Assembly (NCBI GenBank): GCA_013213785.1
Contig: JABSPZ010000005.1
Location: 248,001 to 312,000 of the forward strand
Reading direction: 5' to 3'
Length of the DNA: 64,000 nucleotides
Source of the DNA: Henriciella sp.
GTDB lineage: Bacteria; Pseudomonadota; Alphaproteobacteria; Caulobacterales; Hyphomonadaceae
Of the stretch, positions 17,018 to 25,196 are shown piece after piece. The notes below the pieces were generated by a model, which was given only the letters and a program-made list of their open reading frames with translations, had not been told where the DNA came from and ran no database searches. Every line of letters starts with the position of its first letter. Within the stretch, counting starts at the first letter, position 1. Made by a program: the position numbers and the translations under genes.

Positions 17018-17743
17018 CTATTCCGCGCAAAGCGGAAGAGAGAACCCAGCAGGCATCTTCGTATCTTCAGAGGCGCACGCGCCCTCAAAGTTGGCAGACT
17101 CGACCCCAATCGCTGTTTCTAGATTGGCACCAGCGAACCGGGCATCGCGAAAACTTGCATCCGTGATTGTGGCTGCGGTCAAATCCGCGTTTGCGAGGAT
17201 CGTATTGTCGAAGACAGACCCCGTGAGATCAGCCGCGGTCAGGACTGCCTCAGATAATGTCGCCGCCGAAAAGTCACTATTGTGCACAGTAGCGGACTGC
17301 ATGTGAGCGCCGTTCAAAGTGGCTCCGATAAACTTGCCGTCGCTCAGTGTGGCGCTGTTCAGAACAACGCCGGACATCTTTGAGTTATTGAAGCTTGCAC
17401 CTTGAAGTCTCGCCCCGACGAGAATGGCTTCTTCGAAGGACGCCTCCGTAAAGTCTCCGAGCCTGAGGTCGGCGCCAGCGGCTTGAACGCCGCTGAAGTT
17501 CGCCCCGTGAGCGTGCGCGCGGCGGAGGTTTGCAGCCGTTAGGTCTGCGCCCGGATAGCTGGCTTTGGAGACATTCCAGCCTGACATGTTTCTGCCGACG
17601 AGCGAACAGTCATGGCATGATCCGCTATAGGAAGGAGCCCAAGAAATTCGGCTTGGGGTTTCTTGTGCAGTGCTAAATGGCGCAGCGGCCATGAGCATGG
17701 CGCTAGATAAAAGTAACGAGCGAATGTGAAACCGGTTCGTCAT
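17018..17743 (-). CDS. Secreted pentapeptide-repeat protein
   Basis: I choose ATG 17743 over 17755 because GAGGGGA sits just before it. The 241-residue product has a Sec signal peptide (~residues 1-27, ending near STA|Q), then a CHDC pair, then at least 25 tandem A(D/N)LXX-type pentapeptides that should form a right-handed quadrilateral beta-helix. Two more Cys occur near the C-terminus (EGACASEDTKMP and PLC). It shares this layout with the next gene, so the two are paralogs. Function is unknown; being exported, it is unlikely to be a gyrase-protecting Qnr-type protein. Confidence 0.75.
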   Translation of the reverse strand: MTNRFHIRSLLLSSAMLMAAAPFSTAQETPSRISWAPSYSGSCHDCSLVGRNMSGWNVSKASYPGADLTAANLRRAHAHGANFSGVQAAGADLRLGDFTEASFEEAILVGARLQGASFNNSKMSGVVLNSATLSDGKFIGATLNGAHMQSATVHNSDFSAATLSEAVLTAADLTGSVFDNTILANADLTAATITDASFRDARFAGANLETAIGVESANFEGACASEDTKMPAGFSLPLCAE

Positions 17744-17843
17744 GAGTCCCCTCATACGCGAACGAGCTTTGGTCTAGAACTGAAAAACTAGTAATCCAAG
17801 CGTCGCGCAGATTGCTGTTGCAATCATGTCTCACTCGGTTCGG

Positions 17844-18335
17844 TTAAGAACAGGTTGGGATCGTCTTCCCTTTTGGGAGGCGTGTTGAGGCGTCACCGCA
17901 AGCTAGGTTGAGCTGGGACTGTGTTAAGCCTCGCGCGATCGCCAGGTCGGCGCCAGAGAAGTTCGCGCCGGTCAGTGTTGCTCCGGCGAAATTCGAAGAT
18001 CCAAAGTAAGTCCCGACCGCGATTGCGCGCTTGAGGTTCACGTTTGAGAAGTCTGCTCGGTTGAAACGCGCCCCAAAAAGGTTCGACACGGATAGATCGG
18101 CGCCTTTCAGATTAACGTCGTCATAGGTCGACAGCGCAAAATTAGATTGGCGAAGACGTGATGCTTCCAGGTTCTGTTTCTTCCCTTCAGCGTAAGAGAG
18201 GTCCGCTTGAAAGAGATTGCACTTCGCACAGGATTGCCCGGCTTTCACACGTGCAATTTGAGCAGCGTCCTGCGCAGCGGCGATCGGCGTTAAAAACCCT
18301 ACGAAAAGGGCTGAAATAGCAATGTGTTTCAGCAT
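17844..18335 (-). CDS. Secreted pentapeptide-repeat protein (paralog)
   Basis: The 163-residue protein has a Sec signal peptide ending near AAA|Q (~residue 21), a CAKC pair, about 12 pentapeptide repeats (for example ADLSYAEG and GADLSVSNLFGARFNRADF), and a C-terminal LACGDASTRLPKGKTIPTC that parallels the end of the neighbouring 241-residue protein. The four Cys could form disulfides in the periplasm. It lies 100 nt upstream of its paralog on the same strand, pointing to a tandem duplication followed by divergence. Confidence 0.75.
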   Translation of the reverse strand: MLKHIAISALFVGFLTPIAAAQDAAQIARVKAGQSCAKCNLFQADLSYAEGKKQNLEASRLRQSNFALSTYDDVNLKGADLSVSNLFGARFNRADFSNVNLKRAIAVGTYFGSSNFAGATLTGANFSGADLAIARGLTQSQLNLACGDASTRLPKGKTIPTCS

Positions 18336-18408: not shown

Positions 18409-20649
18409 CTATTCTGTTGCTTCAGCTTTCCCGACATACCCGCATGTATCGCAGGCTGTCTCACCATCTGCTTCATCTAGATAGAGTGTGAAGCTGCCAC
18501 AGTTTGAGCAAGCATCTGGCAGATAGGTCGGCGCCTCCGGCTCTTCGGTTGCCCCTTCAAGCGCTTCCTCTTCCTCTCGCTCTGCTTCGCGCTCTTCGAG
18601 TTTGGTGTTGAAGATTACAATATTGTCTGGAATTTGACCGCGGGCAAAGCCGCGGGAAATCAGGTGGGCCGCTTCGTCCGGAAGAGGCTGTGCTTGCGAT
18701 TTTTCAATTCCGTCCTCAAGACCGCGCCCGAGCCCATCATGAGTTGCATTCCCGAGTTCAGCCAGATCTTCGCGTGCGAGATAAGAGACTGCAAGTTCGC
18801 GGAAAATATAGTCGAGGATTGAGGTCGCACGCGCGATCTGGTCGTTTCCTGTAACTTCTCCGGCGGGTTCAAAGCGCGTGAACACAAATGCATCGACATA
18901 CTCCTCCAAGGGTACGCCGTACTGCAGGCCGAGTGATACCGCGATCGCAAAATTGTTCATGAGCGAGCGGAACGCCGCGCCTTCTTTGTGCATATCGATG
19001 AAGATTTCACCCAGCGAGCCGTCGTCAAATTCACCAGTATGGAGGTACACTTTGTGTCCACCGACAGTCGCCTTTTGGATGTAACCTTTGCGTCGATCTG
19101 GCAGTCGCGTTCGAGAAACGCCGCTTGGGGATTCGATAATCGTTTGCGGCGCCGCGTCCTCAGCCATCAAGTCTTCTGCAAGAGCAGTAATATGCTCCAT
19201 GCGGTCGGCGGTCAGACGGTTCACCTGAGTATCTAGGGCGGGGAGCCAAACTGATAGAGAACTGTCCAATAGCGCTTGCAGGTCTGCATCGTTCAGATTT
19301 GTGCCTGATACGATGATCCCGACATCGCCAGTTTTTAGGAGAGCTTCTGCTAAGTTAATCTGATCATCGGTGGAGAGCGATTGGGTTAAGTTCGCTGGTC
19401 CGATTGCCGCTTCCGCTAGTTTTTCTGGACGCCCATCCAGCGCCTCCTCGGCTTCAGCGATTTCTCGTTTGGAGAAGCCGATCGATTTTAGCAACGAGCG
19501 TCCATCCGCATCGAAGGATTCTGGCGCCAATCGCAGGTCTTTAGAGATAATATCGTCACCTAAGACCCATCGGGAGAAAGCTGCGTTCAAAGGCAAGCCC
19601 TCGCCGAGCGCGCTTTTGACCTTATCGATGGCCTGTGTCGAAAATCCTCGCGTACGGAGCGTGTCACCGCCAAAATGGGGCATCAACTCTAGATCCGCAG
19701 CGGAATCGATTTCACTCAAAAGTGTAGGAAGAACCTCTGGAGCTTTTCGGGCGAGCCCAATTCTAGCCATTAGAGAGAGCGTGGGCGTGTCGCCTTCTTC
19801 AAGTTCGATGAACGACGAAACGGGTTGCAGCCCCAATGTTGCTGGCTGGAAATGAGAGAGCGCCTTGGCCGAAAGGGGGATGATCGCGAGTTCAATATCC
19901 CGTTTTGACTTTCGAGCGCTTCGGGGTGCGAGGTCGAGCGCGTCGGCGTGCTTTTTTGTGAACGAACTCCCTTTTCCCACAGATTGGATAAGCTTGACCA
20001 GCGCAATCAAGCTGGCAGAGCTTTCACCATTATAGCTCTGGCCGAGGCCCAGCAGGGCAGCGGACAATCCACATGGTACAAGCGTGAGTGCGTCGCCATT
20101 CTCATCCATCGCGGCACTGATCAAATCATCCAAAACATCGGTTTCGATGCCATCAGGCGTGACAAATCTCGATACGTCCAGCGCCATCGCAGGCCTGCTC
20201 GGATCTAGCGTCTCCGATTTTTGAAGAATCGTCCCAACCCCTGCACGGCGAACATCGTTCAGATCGCTCAGGCTGGACTCCGCGTCGATGGAACAGGCCG
20301 GCGGCGCGCCGGTTTCGATCGCATCATTGCGAAACTCATTTGCCAGTGTCTCGAAACCGCGATCTTGATTGAGCGCTTCTTCAATCAACGCGAGCGGTAC
20401 GCCGCGCGTCGCGGCTTCCGCCAGCTCAGCGTTTTTGGGCGTATCGCCCAATCCTTCGAGTAACTCAGCCATCGCGAGTTTACTGGTGCGATTGAGTCGC
20501 TGCCGTGTCGCGATGCGAACGGCGTCGTCTTTATCTAACAGATTTGTTAGCGGGACAGCGCAGAGTTCGCCCAGGGGTAAAACCGCGCTGATGAGGCCTT
20601 CATCCATTGCGGTTGCCAGTAATTGTGCGTTGCGATCGCTTGCAGACAT
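18409..20649 (-). CDS. TSCPD-domain protein derived from B12-dependent ribonucleotide reductase (NrdJ-like, no evident catalytic barrel)
   Basis: The frame is open to 21492, but the real start is ATG 20649, with GGAGG 9 nt upstream, giving 746 residues. Residues ~520-640 match the alphaproteobacterial NrdJ C-terminal region: [58 protein letters not shown] and [17 protein letters not shown]. The tail has a CxxC-x15-CxxC set (Cys714, 717, 733, 736). Upstream, only short stretches such as [14 protein letters not shown] and [15 protein letters not shown] segments recall NrdJ, and the active-site barrel motifs are not visible. It is therefore probably not a working reductase; a regulatory or scaffold role is possible. 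It diverges from the NDUFA12 gene. Confidence 0.7.
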
Positions 20650-20775
20650 AAACTGCGCCCTCCAGCCGGTGCGGGCTTGACCTAGCCCGCGACATGATGT
20701 GTTGCCTGTCCTAACTAGATTCGGCGAGACACACGCGCCATATTGCGGACAAATATCACTGTCAGGACGTTCAAT

Positions 20776-21165
20776 ATGTTCAAACTGTTTACTTGGTGGA
20801 ATGGCGTAAGCCCTGGTGGTTGGTTCGATATCAAGCGTCGAAGCGACTTGATCGGAACCGACGAGTACGGGAATCGTTATTTTGAGGACCGCAAAGCGTC
20901 TGTGGAAGGTCGTAAGCGGCGGTATGTCATTTATGACGGTCTGGCTGAACCCTCTAAAGTGCCAGCTGAGTGGCATGGATGGTTGCACTACACATTCGAT
21001 GAGCCGCCAACGGATGCCCCGCTTAAGCGGCAGGCATGGGAAACCGACCACACACCGAATATGACTGGAACTGTGTTTGCTTGCCGTCCGAAGGGAAGCT
21101 TGAGAGAAGGCGGGGAACGTCGCGAAGCCGACGCAGACTACAAGGCCTGGGATCCAAATGCGTGA
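20776..21165 (+). CDS. NDUFA12-type NADH:ubiquinone oxidoreductase accessory subunit
   Basis: From ATG 20776 (AGGA 9 nt upstream) the 129-residue protein has the NDUFA12/B17.2 pattern: [45 protein letters not shown] and a tail with [12 protein letters not shown]. In alphaproteobacteria this protein is an accessory subunit of respiratory complex I at the inner membrane. Its last 8 nt overlap the mlaD start, so the genes are translated together, as in related genomes. Confidence 0.88.
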
Positions 21166-21658
21166 GTCAATTTTTGAGACCCTTGTCGGTCTCGGCGTTC
21201 TAATCGTCGCGGGTATGTTTCTTTGGTTCGGGCTCGCCCGAGGTGGAGACGCAGCGTCCTCAGGCGAAACCGTAGAACTGGGCGCGCGTTTTAGTAGCGC
21301 GGCGACGATCGACCGTGGAACCGACGTCCGCATGGCCGGTGTGAAAATCGGAACTGTGCGAGATGTCGCGCTAGACCGGGAGCGGGCAGAAGCCTTGGTC
21401 GTCATGGCTGTAGATTCCACAATTCTGCCTTTGGGCGATGGTACGAGCGCGCGCGTGCAATCCGAAGGTTTGCTGGGCGGCGCGTATATCAATCTCGAGC
21501 CCGCAGAAGGGTTTGGAGAGATCCTGGCGTGCGGTTCAGGTGAAGAGCTGTTCGGCGATAGCGGGTGCGGCGAGATCCTCTACGCGCAGGGATCTGTCGA
21601 TCTGATGACGCTGTTTGCCTCATTCGCATCAGGTGGCGGCGGCGGAGATGCTGAGTGA
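21158..21658 (+). CDS. mlaD: MlaD-type MCE lipid-transport protein
   Basis: The 166-residue protein has one N-terminal transmembrane helix (~residues 8-27) and an MCE domain starting at [29 protein letters not shown] (two blocks), then [14 protein letters not shown]. MlaD forms a hexameric ring that passes phospholipids between the membranes to keep outer-membrane asymmetry. The partner mlaE/mlaF genes are not adjacent. It overlaps its neighbours by 8 nt and 4 nt. Confidence 0.88.
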
Positions 21659-22239
21659 TCCGCGCGGCGACGCTGGGACTTGTTGGGATCGCTGTAGCGG
21701 TCTTTGCTTACGCGCAAAATGCGGAAGAACCAGAACGCACGGTTTCTGACCTTGAGCGCGAGCTTTTCGGCACTGATAGCACTGACCCAGACGCGGAATT
21801 AGAAGAAGAAATCATCGAGTCGCGCCCGCGCACGTATCAGCCGTATGAGACGGTAATGCTCCGTGCGTTGGATAAGATAACTGGGCGCTCCACAGACTTT
21901 GAGATGCTCGTGGGCGAACCGAAAGTTTATGGCTCGCTGCGGATTGATCTCCAAACCTGTTATCAAACACCACCAGAGGAGCCGCCGGAAAGCGCGGCCT
22001 TTCTAAAAATTACGTCTGCGACTTCCAAACAGGTTCAGACGATGGCCGAGCCGCGTGATTTGACGGATGAAGAGATGACTGTCTCTGAAGCCGAAGATGC
22101 GGATGTGCGTTTTTCCGGATGGATGTTTGCGTCTTCTCCTGGGCTGAGCGCGCTTGAACACCCGGTCTATGATATTTGGGTGATTGCCTGCAGTGAAGTC
22201 GATCCAGCCATACTCAACCCTCTCGAGCCCGCCGAGTAG
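21655..22239 (+). CDS. DUF2155 domain-containing exported protein
   Basis: The GTG start at 21655 overlaps the mlaD stop. The 194-residue protein has a signal peptide-like N-terminus ending near AYA|Q, an acidic spacer, and a DUF2155 domain from ~60 on (TVMLRALDKITGRSTDFEMLVGE, SLRIDLQTCYQTPPEEPPE, FSGWMFASSPGLSALEHPVYDIWVIAC). Two Cys may pair in the periplasm. The function of DUF2155 is unknown; it often sits next to aat and NDUFA12. Its last 73 nt overlap the convergent aat gene. Confidence 0.82.
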   Translation: MIRAATLGLVGIAVAVFAYAQNAEEPERTVSDLERELFGTDSTDPDAELEEEIIESRPRTYQPYETVMLRALDKITGRSTDFEMLVGEPKVYGSLRIDLQTCYQTPPEEPPESAAFLKITSATSKQVQTMAEPRDLTDEEMTVSEAEDADVRFSGWMFASSPGLSALEHPVYDIWVIACSEVDPAILNPLEPAE

Positions 22240-22832
22240 AAATCGGCATTTACCCGCAAGGCACGCCATAGTTTCGCTCGGAAATCATCGCGCGAAATTT
22301 CTTCCAAACCGAACTGTTCCAAATGCGGATTATGGAATTGTGCGTCTAGGAGCTCAAAGCCTCCGAGTTTGAGGCGCGCAACCAAGTGAACGAGGGCAAT
22401 CTTTGACGCATCCGTTGCGCGCGAGAACATACTCTCCCCAAAGAATGCCCCGCCGAGCGCCACACCGTAAAGCCCCCCAACCAAATCGCCATCGTCTGTC
22501 CAGCACTCGACGCTATGGGCGTTTCCTTGTCGGTGCAGGGCGCCGTACAGATTTAGAATAGGATCGTTGATCCATGTTGCAGGCCGTGTTGGGTGCGGCT
22601 CTGCACAGGCTTCGATAACCCGGTTAAAAGCGGTATCAACAGTCACACGGAATGGATCTTGTCGAACTGTTTTGCGAAGCCGCTCCGGAATATGGAACCG
22701 ATCTAGAGGCAGAACGCCTCGTAGATCGGGGTCCATCAAAAACAGCCGCATATCTTCGCGTGAGTCCGCCATCGGAAACACGCCGCGCCTGTAACAGTTT
22801 AAAAGATCCGTGGTGTCGAACCGATCTGACAT
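22167..22832 (-). CDS. aat: Leucyl/phenylalanyl-tRNA-protein transferase
   Basis: The 221-residue protein has the Aat core: YRRGVFPMADSRE near residue 14, WINDPILNLYGALHRQGNAHSVECW, LVGGLYGVALGGAFFGESMFSR, and FELLDAQFHNPHLEQFG. It adds Leu or Phe to N-terminal Arg/Lys residues and marks proteins for ClpAP (N-degron pathway). The C-terminal LQAITQ ending looks family-typical, so the 73-nt overlap with DUF2155 is probably genuine. It follows accC by 9 nt. Confidence 0.9.
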   Translation of the reverse strand: MSDRFDTTDLLNCYRRGVFPMADSREDMRLFLMDPDLRGVLPLDRFHIPERLRKTVRQDPFRVTVDTAFNRVIEACAEPHPTRPATWINDPILNLYGALHRQGNAHSVECWTDDGDLVGGLYGVALGGAFFGESMFSRATDASKIALVHLVARLKLGGFELLDAQFHNPHLEQFGLEEISRDDFRAKLWRALRVNADFYSAGSRGLSMAGSTSLQAITQIS

Positions 22833-22841
22833 ACAAACAGT

Positions 22842-24182
22842 CTACTTCAGACCGAGATAACGCTCCAGCCAGTGAATATCATAATTCCCATCCACGACAT
22901 CTTGGGCTTCGACGAGCTTACGGTGCAATGGAAGGGTCGTATCCACACCGCCGACAACCATTTCGTCCAACGCGCGGCGCAGGCGCATTATGCACTCGTT
23001 TCGCGTTCTGCCATGCACAATCAACTTGGCTATCATGCTGTCATAGTGCGGTGGGATCTTATAGCCCGCGTAGACCGCACTATCGAGGCGAACGTCAGGA
23101 CCACCTGGTGCATGGAAGTCGGTGATTTTTCCAGGCGAAGGAACAAAGGTTTCGTGATGTTCGGCGTTAATCCGGCATTCGATCGCGTGACCGACGAGCA
23201 AGACATCTTCTTGCGAGAAGGAGAGTTTTTTCCCATCCGCAACGCGAATCTGTTCGCGGATGAGGTCGATACCAGTGATCATTTCAGTCACTGGGTGCTC
23301 AACCTGAATTCGCGTATTCATCTCGATAAAATAGAAGTTCCCGTCTTCGTATAGGAATTCCATAGTGCCAGCGCCGCGATAGCCCATCTTTTTGACGGCT
23401 TTCGCGACGATGGTCCCGATCTCTTCGCGCTGGGCTTGATTCAACGCCGGGGAAGGGGCTTCTTCAAACACTTTCTGGTGGCGGCGTTGCAGTGAGCAAT
23501 CGCGTTCCCACAGATGACAAACATTGCCATGAGTGTCCGCGATCAGCTGGATTTCAATGTGGCGAGGCTTGCCGAGATACTTTTCGAGATAAACTGCATC
23601 GTCACCGAATGCGGCTTTGGCTTCGGTCTTGGCAGACTTAATCGCGTTCTCGAGGTCTTTCTCGGTTTCAGCGACGCGCATGCCGCGACCACCGCCGCCA
23701 GAGGCAGCCTTAACGAGGACGGGATAGCCGATCTTCTTGGCGACTTTCTTGCCTTCGCTGATCGTGGAAATGCCACCCTCTGAACCAGGTACGACAGGCA
23801 CGCCTGCGTCGATCATGGTCTGCTTGGCCGTGATTTTGTCGCCCATAGTGCGGATATGATCCGCAGTAGGCCCGATAAAGATCAAATCATGGGCTTCGAC
23901 CATTTCGGCGAACTGCGCATTCTCAGACAAGAAGCCATACCCTGGGTGGATCGCATCAGCGCCGGTAATTTCCGCAGCGGCGATAATTTGTGACTTCTTC
24001 AGATAACTGTTTGCGCTTGGGGCGGGGCCGATGCAAACGCTTTCATCCGCCAGACGAACGGCCATGGCATCGCGGTCTGCTTCAGAATGGACTGCCACAG
24101 TCGACAAACCCATTTCCTTACACGCGCGGTGAATGCGCAGCGCAATTTCGCCTCGGTTGGCGATAAGAACTTTTTCAATCAT
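22842..24182 (-). CDS. accC: Acetyl-CoA carboxylase biotin carboxylase subunit
   Basis: The 446-residue ATP-grasp enzyme has [18 protein letters not shown] at the N-terminus, [13 protein letters not shown], the glycine-rich ATP loop [12 protein letters not shown], the catalytic [17 protein letters not shown] and the C-terminal ECRINAE domain. It carboxylates the biotin carried by AccB, the first step of fatty-acid synthesis. It lies 12 nt after accB and 9 nt before aat in one operon. Confidence 0.96.
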
Positions 24183-24194
24183 CGTTTCGTGTCC

Positions 24195-24680
24195 TTATTC
24201 GACCACGATCAATGGCTCACCGAATTCAACCGGTTGGGAATCATCGACGAGGATTTCTTTCACGGTGCCAGCAGCGTCTGCAGTGACAGGATTGAAGGTC
24301 TTCATCGCTTCAATCAGCATGAGTGTGTCGCCCTTTTTGACCTTGTCGCCAACATTCACAAACGCCTTCGCGCCGGGTTCTGGTGATAGGTATACGGTTC
24401 CAACCATGGGGCTGGTGGTCGCATTAGAGGGTGCTGCGGCAGGTGCGGCGGCCGCCGTGGGCGCTGCTGGTGCAGCTGCTGGAGCGGCAGCAACCGGCGC
24501 AGCAGCAACAGGCGCTGCCTGCACAATTGCGGGCGCGGGCGGTGTCATGCTTGTTGCTTTGCTCACACGGATGCGGAGACCTTCATGCTCCACTTCAACC
24601 TCTCCGAGGTCGGCTTCACGCAGGATCGCGGCGAGTTCGCGGACCAAGCCTGCGTCGAGTTTTGTCTTGCTAGTGGACAT
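24195..24680 (-). CDS. accB: Acetyl-CoA carboxylase biotin carboxyl carrier protein
   Basis: The start at 24680 (GAGGAG upstream) gives 161 residues. The C-terminal biotinyl domain has [11 protein letters not shown], with the biotin-accepting Lys between Met and Thr. The middle is a flexible Ala/Pro linker (~residues 55-85), and the N-terminus has the [19 protein letters not shown] segment usual for AccB. It carries CO2 from AccC to the carboxyltransferase. It lies between aroQ and accC. Confidence 0.95.
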
Positions 24681-24706
24681 CGGTGGGGGCTCCTCAGTCT
24701 TTTTTC

Positions 24707-25129
24707 TTATTGGAGAGCGGCGTCTAACGCCATCAAATAGCCGCGTACGCCAAAACCTGCAATGCAGGCGTCGGCGCAAGGAGCGACATAGTTAGTTGTT
24801 CGGAACGCTTCTCGCGCAGCCGGGTTCGAAATATGGACCTCGTATGTGCGCGCTTCGCAAGCACGCAGGGCATCATGAAGAGCAACAGATGTGTGCGTGT
24901 AGGCCCCTGCGTTGAGAATCAGGATCTCTGCAGACTTAGAAGCCTCCTGAACCCAGTCGATGAGTTCGCCTTCAGAATTTGTCTGACGGAATGTTATCTC
25001 TGAATTGGGCGCGGCTGCTTTCATTTGCTGGTGGATATCGTCCAGCGTCGTCGTTCCGTAAATCTCAGGCTCGCGTGTGCCGAGCAGGTTGAGATTTGGG
25101 CCGTTGAGAACATATATCTGTTGCGTCAT
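24707..25129 (-). CDS. aroQ: Type II 3-dehydroquinate dehydratase
   Basis: The 140-residue protein starts with [20 protein letters not shown], the type II signature with the catalytic Tyr, and later has [16 protein letters not shown] and [13 protein letters not shown] with the catalytic His. It makes 3-dehydroshikimate in the shikimate pathway. The frame is open to 25174, but the family N-terminus points to 25129. It starts the aroQ-accB-accC-aat operon and diverges from thiS with 67 nt between the starts. Confidence 0.93.
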
Positions 25130-25196
25130 TGCCACACGCTCTTGCGGCGGATCGCTAAGCTTGGCAAGTCCCATTTAAGCAATTGGAGGCCAGCAA

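Follow-up and report, generated by a model that had tools for sequence, protein, structure and literature searches.

The gene located at positions 18409..20649 (minus strand) of the window, i.e. the whole 64,000-nt stretch of Henriciella sp. DNA that was analysed, encodes a 746-aa protein (P0001), which we consider likely to be a positional ortholog of NrdJ, the B12-dependent ribonucleotide reductase (RNR), that has turned into a pseudoenzyme and been kept by selection as a non-catalytic scaffold or regulator. Translation from the ATG at position 20649 gave an uninterrupted frame with zero internal stops, and the start codon is preceded, at a distance of 8 nt, by the sequence GGAGGG (20658..20663, minus strand), a likely ribosome binding site. 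An earlier note on this DNA had described the frame as intact and the ribosome binding site as good; both descriptions hold, with the addition of the strand, which was unstated there.

Divergently oriented genes encoding NDUFA12, MlaD and DUF2155 proteins (20743..22239, plus strand; identified with Pfam) constitute a syntenic anchor common to full NrdJ loci. A further anchor, detected by tblastn synteny, is formed by genes of the minus strand (22167..25174) that we take, from their sequences, to be aat, accC, accB and aroQ. In the relatives, one flank has the order NDUFA12, (MlaD), DUF2155, aat, accC, accB, aroQ, the opposite flank often has a pair of pentapeptide-repeat genes, and full-length NrdJ occupies the equivalent position in L117, L066, L077, L052 and other loci. 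Judged from gene order and sequence similarity, this comparison demonstrated that P0001 is the positional ortholog of alphaproteobacterial NrdJ, by descent at a fixed locus. The two pentapeptide-repeat genes of the window (17018-17755 and 17844-18335, minus strand; PF00805) encode proteins whose N-termini read as signal-like. Such genes also adjoin full NrdJ in L066, L095, L115, L117, L118 and L120, and at many loci in Caulobacterales the pair has remained adjacent to NrdJ, whether full or dead; it is possibly tied functionally to the NrdJ locus.

Dead forms of NrdJ were found in families f1, f2, f3 and f4 of the order, and full NrdJ in f5 and in genus g13 of f4. A tree of the neighbour genes of 43 loci (L138, from which these genes are missing, was left out) required three changes of state. 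Under LG+G4 without mixture, and with the tested groups chosen after viewing a first tree, one origin of all dead forms was rejected (AU p 0.0004) and a single clade of the Caulobacterales dead forms was not (AU p 0.198). The gene tree unites the latter (SH-aLRT 94, quick tree); in the neighbour-gene tree, the full NrdJ locus of Robiginitomaculum (L066) is nested among them.

The Pfam search of P0001 revealed (i) a TSCPD domain (PF12637) at residues 525-620, over the gathering cut-off (41.2 vs 22.8 bits), in agreement with the TSCPD-like region placed earlier at residues ~520-640, (ii) a TFIIB-type zinc ribbon at residues 714-739, under the cut-off, and (iii) no RNR domain. The NCBIfam model of NrdJ (NF005736) scored the protein at 300.4 bits, with the best stretch at residues 510-698; the cut-off of this model is 1737, so that P0001 lies far below the whole-protein cut-off and does not reach the curated NrdJ score. 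More of the protein could be aligned by other approaches. A phmmer search against solved structures matched residues 324-404 to the B12-dependent RNR 7b9p/7b9q (E 0.0035), and a profile-profile comparison of 7 coreless proteins of Hyphomonadaceae with 18 full NrdJ aligned residues 193-740 with columns 567-1244 of the NrdJ profile (E 9e-106). The predicted model of residues 1-477 superposed on the NrdJ barrel of 7b9p (130-919) over 452 residues, at 4.8 Å and 11% identity; the profile alignment starts at residue 193, and for residues 1-192 the barrel assignment is backed by structure prediction alone.

Residues 1-475 (19225..20649, minus strand) are thus predicted still to fold as a reduced RNR alpha/beta barrel, catalytically dead, and the barrel of P0001 would have degenerated without having been lost. 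The NrdJ descent proposed in the earlier note is upheld by these results. Its view of a catalytic core lost as a domain, with the first ~500 residues keeping only weak echoes of NrdJ, finds no support in the profile alignment from residue 193 or in the predicted fold. The 14-residue echo that it named corresponds to residues 331-344 and lies inside a second slow block, comprised of residues 321-412 (19414..19689, minus strand; NrdJ positions ~741-824; hmmsearch iE about 1e-14), which is slow within the coreless genus.

The TSCPD domain as a whole (residues 509-630; 18760..19125, minus strand) resembles that of active NrdJ. It is predicted with low confidence in the full-length model, and a structural search of the isolated domain gave no convincing relative in the PDB; its fold may be IscU/SufU-like. 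It is followed by an ISRGFxRGxxPDNI linker (residues 664-677; 18619..18660, minus strand), the columns of which are mostly invariant in 18 coreless sequences, and by the zinc ribbon (residues 714-736; 18442..18510, minus strand).

Inspection of the active-site motifs revealed that NPCSE (NxCxE), ACF, TACN and APTGT are absent from the entire non-redundant set of 58 coreless proteins from the order, P0001 included, as the earlier note had reported for this protein. Among 63 full NrdJ, ACF was present in 62, and NPCSE, TACN and APTGT in 63/63 each. The APTGTIGLVMDCDTTGIEP segment of NrdJ is consequently not retained (APTGT in 0/58 coreless vs 63/63 full proteins). We take the NPCSE loop (NrdJ positions 474-478) to supply the radical Cys and Glu, and C199 (ACFIQ) and C487 (TACNLAS) to be redox cysteines. 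In the coreless proteins, the catalytic residues mostly align with gaps or with other amino acids, and so do C199 and C487 in P0001; a cysteine occurs, outside the full motif, at the radical-Cys column in one Maricaulaceae row and at position 487 in one f176 row.

The set of 58 was assembled with P0001 in place of L005 and without identical rows, the contig-cut L061, L068 and L053, the partial L001, and frames under 690 aa (L040, L082, L086 and L087). Full NrdJ were collected in sets of 61 (1180-1300 aa), 63 (up to 1400 aa; used for the motif and cysteine counts) and 31 (thinned; used for the gene tree and for rates). Set A2, thinned of near-identical rows, kept 47/74, and six more failed the pattern.

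The C-terminal CxxC-x15-CxxC set noticed earlier is present in P0001 as C714-x2-C717-x15-C733-x2-C736. These four tail cysteines are kept, and two others absent, in 58/58 coreless proteins (the tail of one, L033, has a fifth cysteine at a different place), as opposed to six cysteines in 63/63 full NrdJ tails. For the NrdJd of S. nassauensis, prediction assigns the terminal redox pair to Cys933 and Cys945 and zinc binding to the remaining four cysteines; metal content upheld three of these four zinc assignments (PMC5704485). The equivalents of Cys933 and Cys945 are missing from P0001. The redox/zinc tail of the earlier note is accordingly a zinc ribbon from which both predicted redox cysteines have gone.

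That P0001 still reduces ribonucleotides via an altered active site is barely credible. The predicted persistence of the barrel fold speaks for this reading; all four active-site motifs and the tail redox pair are nevertheless lost throughout the coreless set, and the genome has a class I RNR.

Substitution rates were used to examine the selective regime. The least saturated pair (L010-L011, dS 0.69) gave omega values of 0.078 for the whole gene, 0.012 for TSCPD and 0.008 for residues 321-412. Whole-gene values of three further pairs were 0.04-0.07, two pairs being saturated, and the four pairs that could be scored for the block 321-412 lay at 0.005-0.037. Saturation of dS affects most pairs. 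These comparisons demonstrated strong purifying selection on P0001, as read from its coding sequence. The dN/dS check across orthologs thus gave values far below 1, not near it, in scorable pairs, and together with the frames intact in relatives this bears out the suggestion that the gene is probably not decaying. Loss of the motifs from an intact gene under purifying selection indicates a likely non-catalytic role, and P0001 probably performs such another job; the roles proposed in the earlier note, to regulate or scaffold RNR or to bind nucleotides or B12, may be regarded as candidates.

Relative to the neighbour genes (median ratio), TSCPD evolves at 0.46 in dead forms (450 pairs) vs 0.42 in full NrdJ (66 pairs), and retains 68/74 full-invariant residues in dead forms, in which positions 1062 (Lys) and 1087 (His) are mostly substituted. 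The corresponding rates of the barrel are 3.22 vs 0.69; of the 212 barrel positions that are >95% invariant among 31 full NrdJ, none is kept in >90% of 38 dead forms, this divergence being inflated by the uncertain alignment of dead to full barrels. Across families, the block 741-824 evolves about twofold faster in dead forms (2.38 vs 1.23) and retains 4/14 full-invariant residues in them.

P0001 was matched in 114/120 genomes (its own included), with no internal stop in any match row. A frame error or pseudogene was rejected, since neither P0001 nor the match rows from relatives have a broken frame. The six genomes of the order without a match (G073, G087, G091, G095, G097 and G113) are all at least 99% complete and represent natural deletions suited to comparison. 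In the genus of G085, 59/61 genomes were matched and 2/61 were not, with no frame >977 aa among the matches listed. A P0001-type protein is therefore not indispensable, as evidenced by the 6/120 and 2/61 genomes without one. Two reduced variants were also noted: G574 has a 129-aa fragment interrupted by an internal stop, and G500 has an ORF that stops after TSCPD, the match crossing two stops. These cases, the range of dead-form lengths (689-1085 aa) and the redundancy of NrdJ in a genome with class I RNR are what would be expected of a functionless, slowly decaying NrdJ relic, kept by chance or at a locus that is hard to delete. We nonetheless regard such a relic as improbable, given the low omega values of the whole protein and particularly of TSCPD, the intact match rows of 114 genomes, and a TSCPD rate equal to that in active NrdJ.

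A class-wide search matched 257/385 genomes, with lengths known only among the matches listed. Dead forms were found beyond the order in L137 and L140 (one other order) and in L138 (a third), and each of the three genomes also encodes a further RNR large subunit (623-659 aa). The L140 protein (1085 aa) has long colinear stretches with the active-site loop replaced, and from its sequence looks like an intermediate form. The 33 genomes in the order of G424 include 24 of f119, and 19 of these 24 match outside TSCPD only. The five f119 proteins read (L147-L151, 689-747 aa) consist of a dead barrel beside NDUFA12, without TSCPD or zinc ribbon, and so does L146 (G501, 874 aa), which is oriented the opposite way and separated from NDUFA12 by ~3 kb. 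L146-L151 thus present the reverse of the P0001 case, the barrel being kept and TSCPD and the zinc tail gone. The f164 proteins read (L137 and L154) have kept TSCPD and are devoid of the zinc ribbon. The idea that TSCPD is kept in all dead forms is false, in view of the f119 proteins and L146; as far as the sequences read indicate, the Caulobacterales lines keep TSCPD fully constrained, yet it is not universally required. TSCPD was also detected in 5 phage and 16 plasmid records, the annotated ones among the matches listed being labelled ribonucleotide reductases. One of these records, Bradyrhizobium phage BDU-MI-1 (KY940711.1:31258-31614), encodes a class II RNR that shares 70% identity with P0001 in the TSCPD domain.

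A genome-wide profile search identified one TSCPD protein over the cut-off; a weak match at C2:250084, which at 21.7 bits falls short of the cut-off and lies opposite a longer frame, was taken as chance and not as a second TSCPD gene. PF02867 matches one protein only, a 622-aa NrdA ending CLACQ, on the same contig as a class I RNR small subunit. The full NrdJ elsewhere in the genome that the earlier note proposed to look for was not found by profile search, nor was a second NrdJ or NrdJa, and this NrdA is the sole RNR large subunit. Among the relatives, the RNR large-subunit family PF02867 was matched in 117/120 genomes (own included). Thirteen match rows (e.g. G093, G077 and G067) have a short frame (582-828 aa) matched over 2-523, which in these scattered relatives may be a further RNR, possibly of class II, additional to the class I NrdA. 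Such frames could provide the partner if P0001 were a trans subunit of another class II RNR, like NrdJb in NrdJa+b. With NrdA as the only PF02867 protein, no NrdJa found and the redox cysteines gone, this is very improbable, being contradicted for the own genome unless NrdJa sits in an assembly gap, and the NrdJb-type partner was rejected.

P0001 might instead regulate or assemble class I NrdA/NrdB, for example by forming a hetero-oligomer that inhibits or stabilises the enzyme, or by substituting for the missing ATP-cone. The only ATP-cone match in 7/7 genomes tested was a 154-169-aa frame, NrdR by its size, and NrdA and NrdB appear to lack an ATP-cone. Moreover, the C-terminal domain of S. 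nassauensis NrdJd drives dATP/dGTP-induced oligomers (PMC5704485). The ATP-cone pattern is, however, uninformative as a functional clue, since G108, with full NrdJ, has an identical one and the two cases are not discriminated, and the lack of any conserved residue among the 212 of the barrel also speaks against this role. It remains rather unlikely in this specific form, although a link between P0001 and class I RNR is plausible.

The retained, non-catalytic NrdJ ortholog could have arisen as follows: (i) NrdAB would supply deoxynucleotides, after which NrdJ catalysis would be lost, (ii) the catalytically dead protein would be retained in a non-catalytic role, as a scaffold or regulator that is probably oligomeric, and (iii) the surface of TSCPD would contact the same partner as in active NrdJ, either its own copy or another protein. 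A first guess for the role, offered as a doubtful one, is that it regulates or assembles class I RNR. The persistence of a dead RNR throughout whole families amounts to a natural separation-of-function experiment, and constraint surviving the loss of catalysis points to an own role of the C-terminal IscU-like domain, whose role is stated as unreported in PMC9669993. In Caulobacter, CCNA_01966 has been tabulated as a vitamin B12-dependent ribonucleotide reductase (PMC5869019) and placed as NrdJ in nucleotide reduction in a figure legend (PMC6538847). The search of the G085 genus, which appears to be Caulobacter, suggests that CCNA_01966 is probably a dead form too, and that the genes labelled B12-dependent RNR in Caulobacter and its relatives probably reduce nothing. 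Tentatively, alphaproteobacterial NrdJ may be bifunctional, with a strongly constrained, RNR-independent cellular role of TSCPD; at least two lineages with class I RNR would then have stripped NrdJ of catalysis and kept it as a pseudoenzyme with TSCPD, CCNA_01966 being one case. No description of a dead NrdJ was found among the open-access papers listed by the literature searches.

The system closest to P0001 is alphaproteobacterial NrdJ itself (NF005736/PRK07562; 7b9p of Rhodobacter sphaeroides), with which it shares the locus, colinear homology, the predicted barrel, a close TSCPD and the zinc ribbon; it differs in being ~480 residues shorter and in the loss of the catalytic motifs and the redox cysteine pair. 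A stand-alone protein of 190 aa in G502 (L153:4268-4840), located beside bamD-, recN- and ligA-like genes, likewise combines an alphaproteobacterial-type TSCPD with the lack of a catalytic barrel, but at another locus and without a zinc ribbon or any barrel. The NrdJb chain of split class II RNR (CRD chain, P. aeruginosa type) also has an IscU-like domain, equated with TSCPD by our own reading, and a zinc finger (PMC9669993, PMC5704485). It operates with a catalytic NrdJa, whereas P0001 has a fused dead barrel, no NrdJa found beside it and no redox pair. The inactive R1 proteins of cytomegaloviruses contain, to our knowledge, neither TSCPD nor a zinc ribbon. They are class I and viral, and they act on host signalling; the likeness is drawn as an analogy only. 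As such, HCMV UL45 and MCMV M45, described as RNR large subunits devoid of catalysis that have acquired another role (PMC5469499), may be considered the nearest precedent for a dead RNR.
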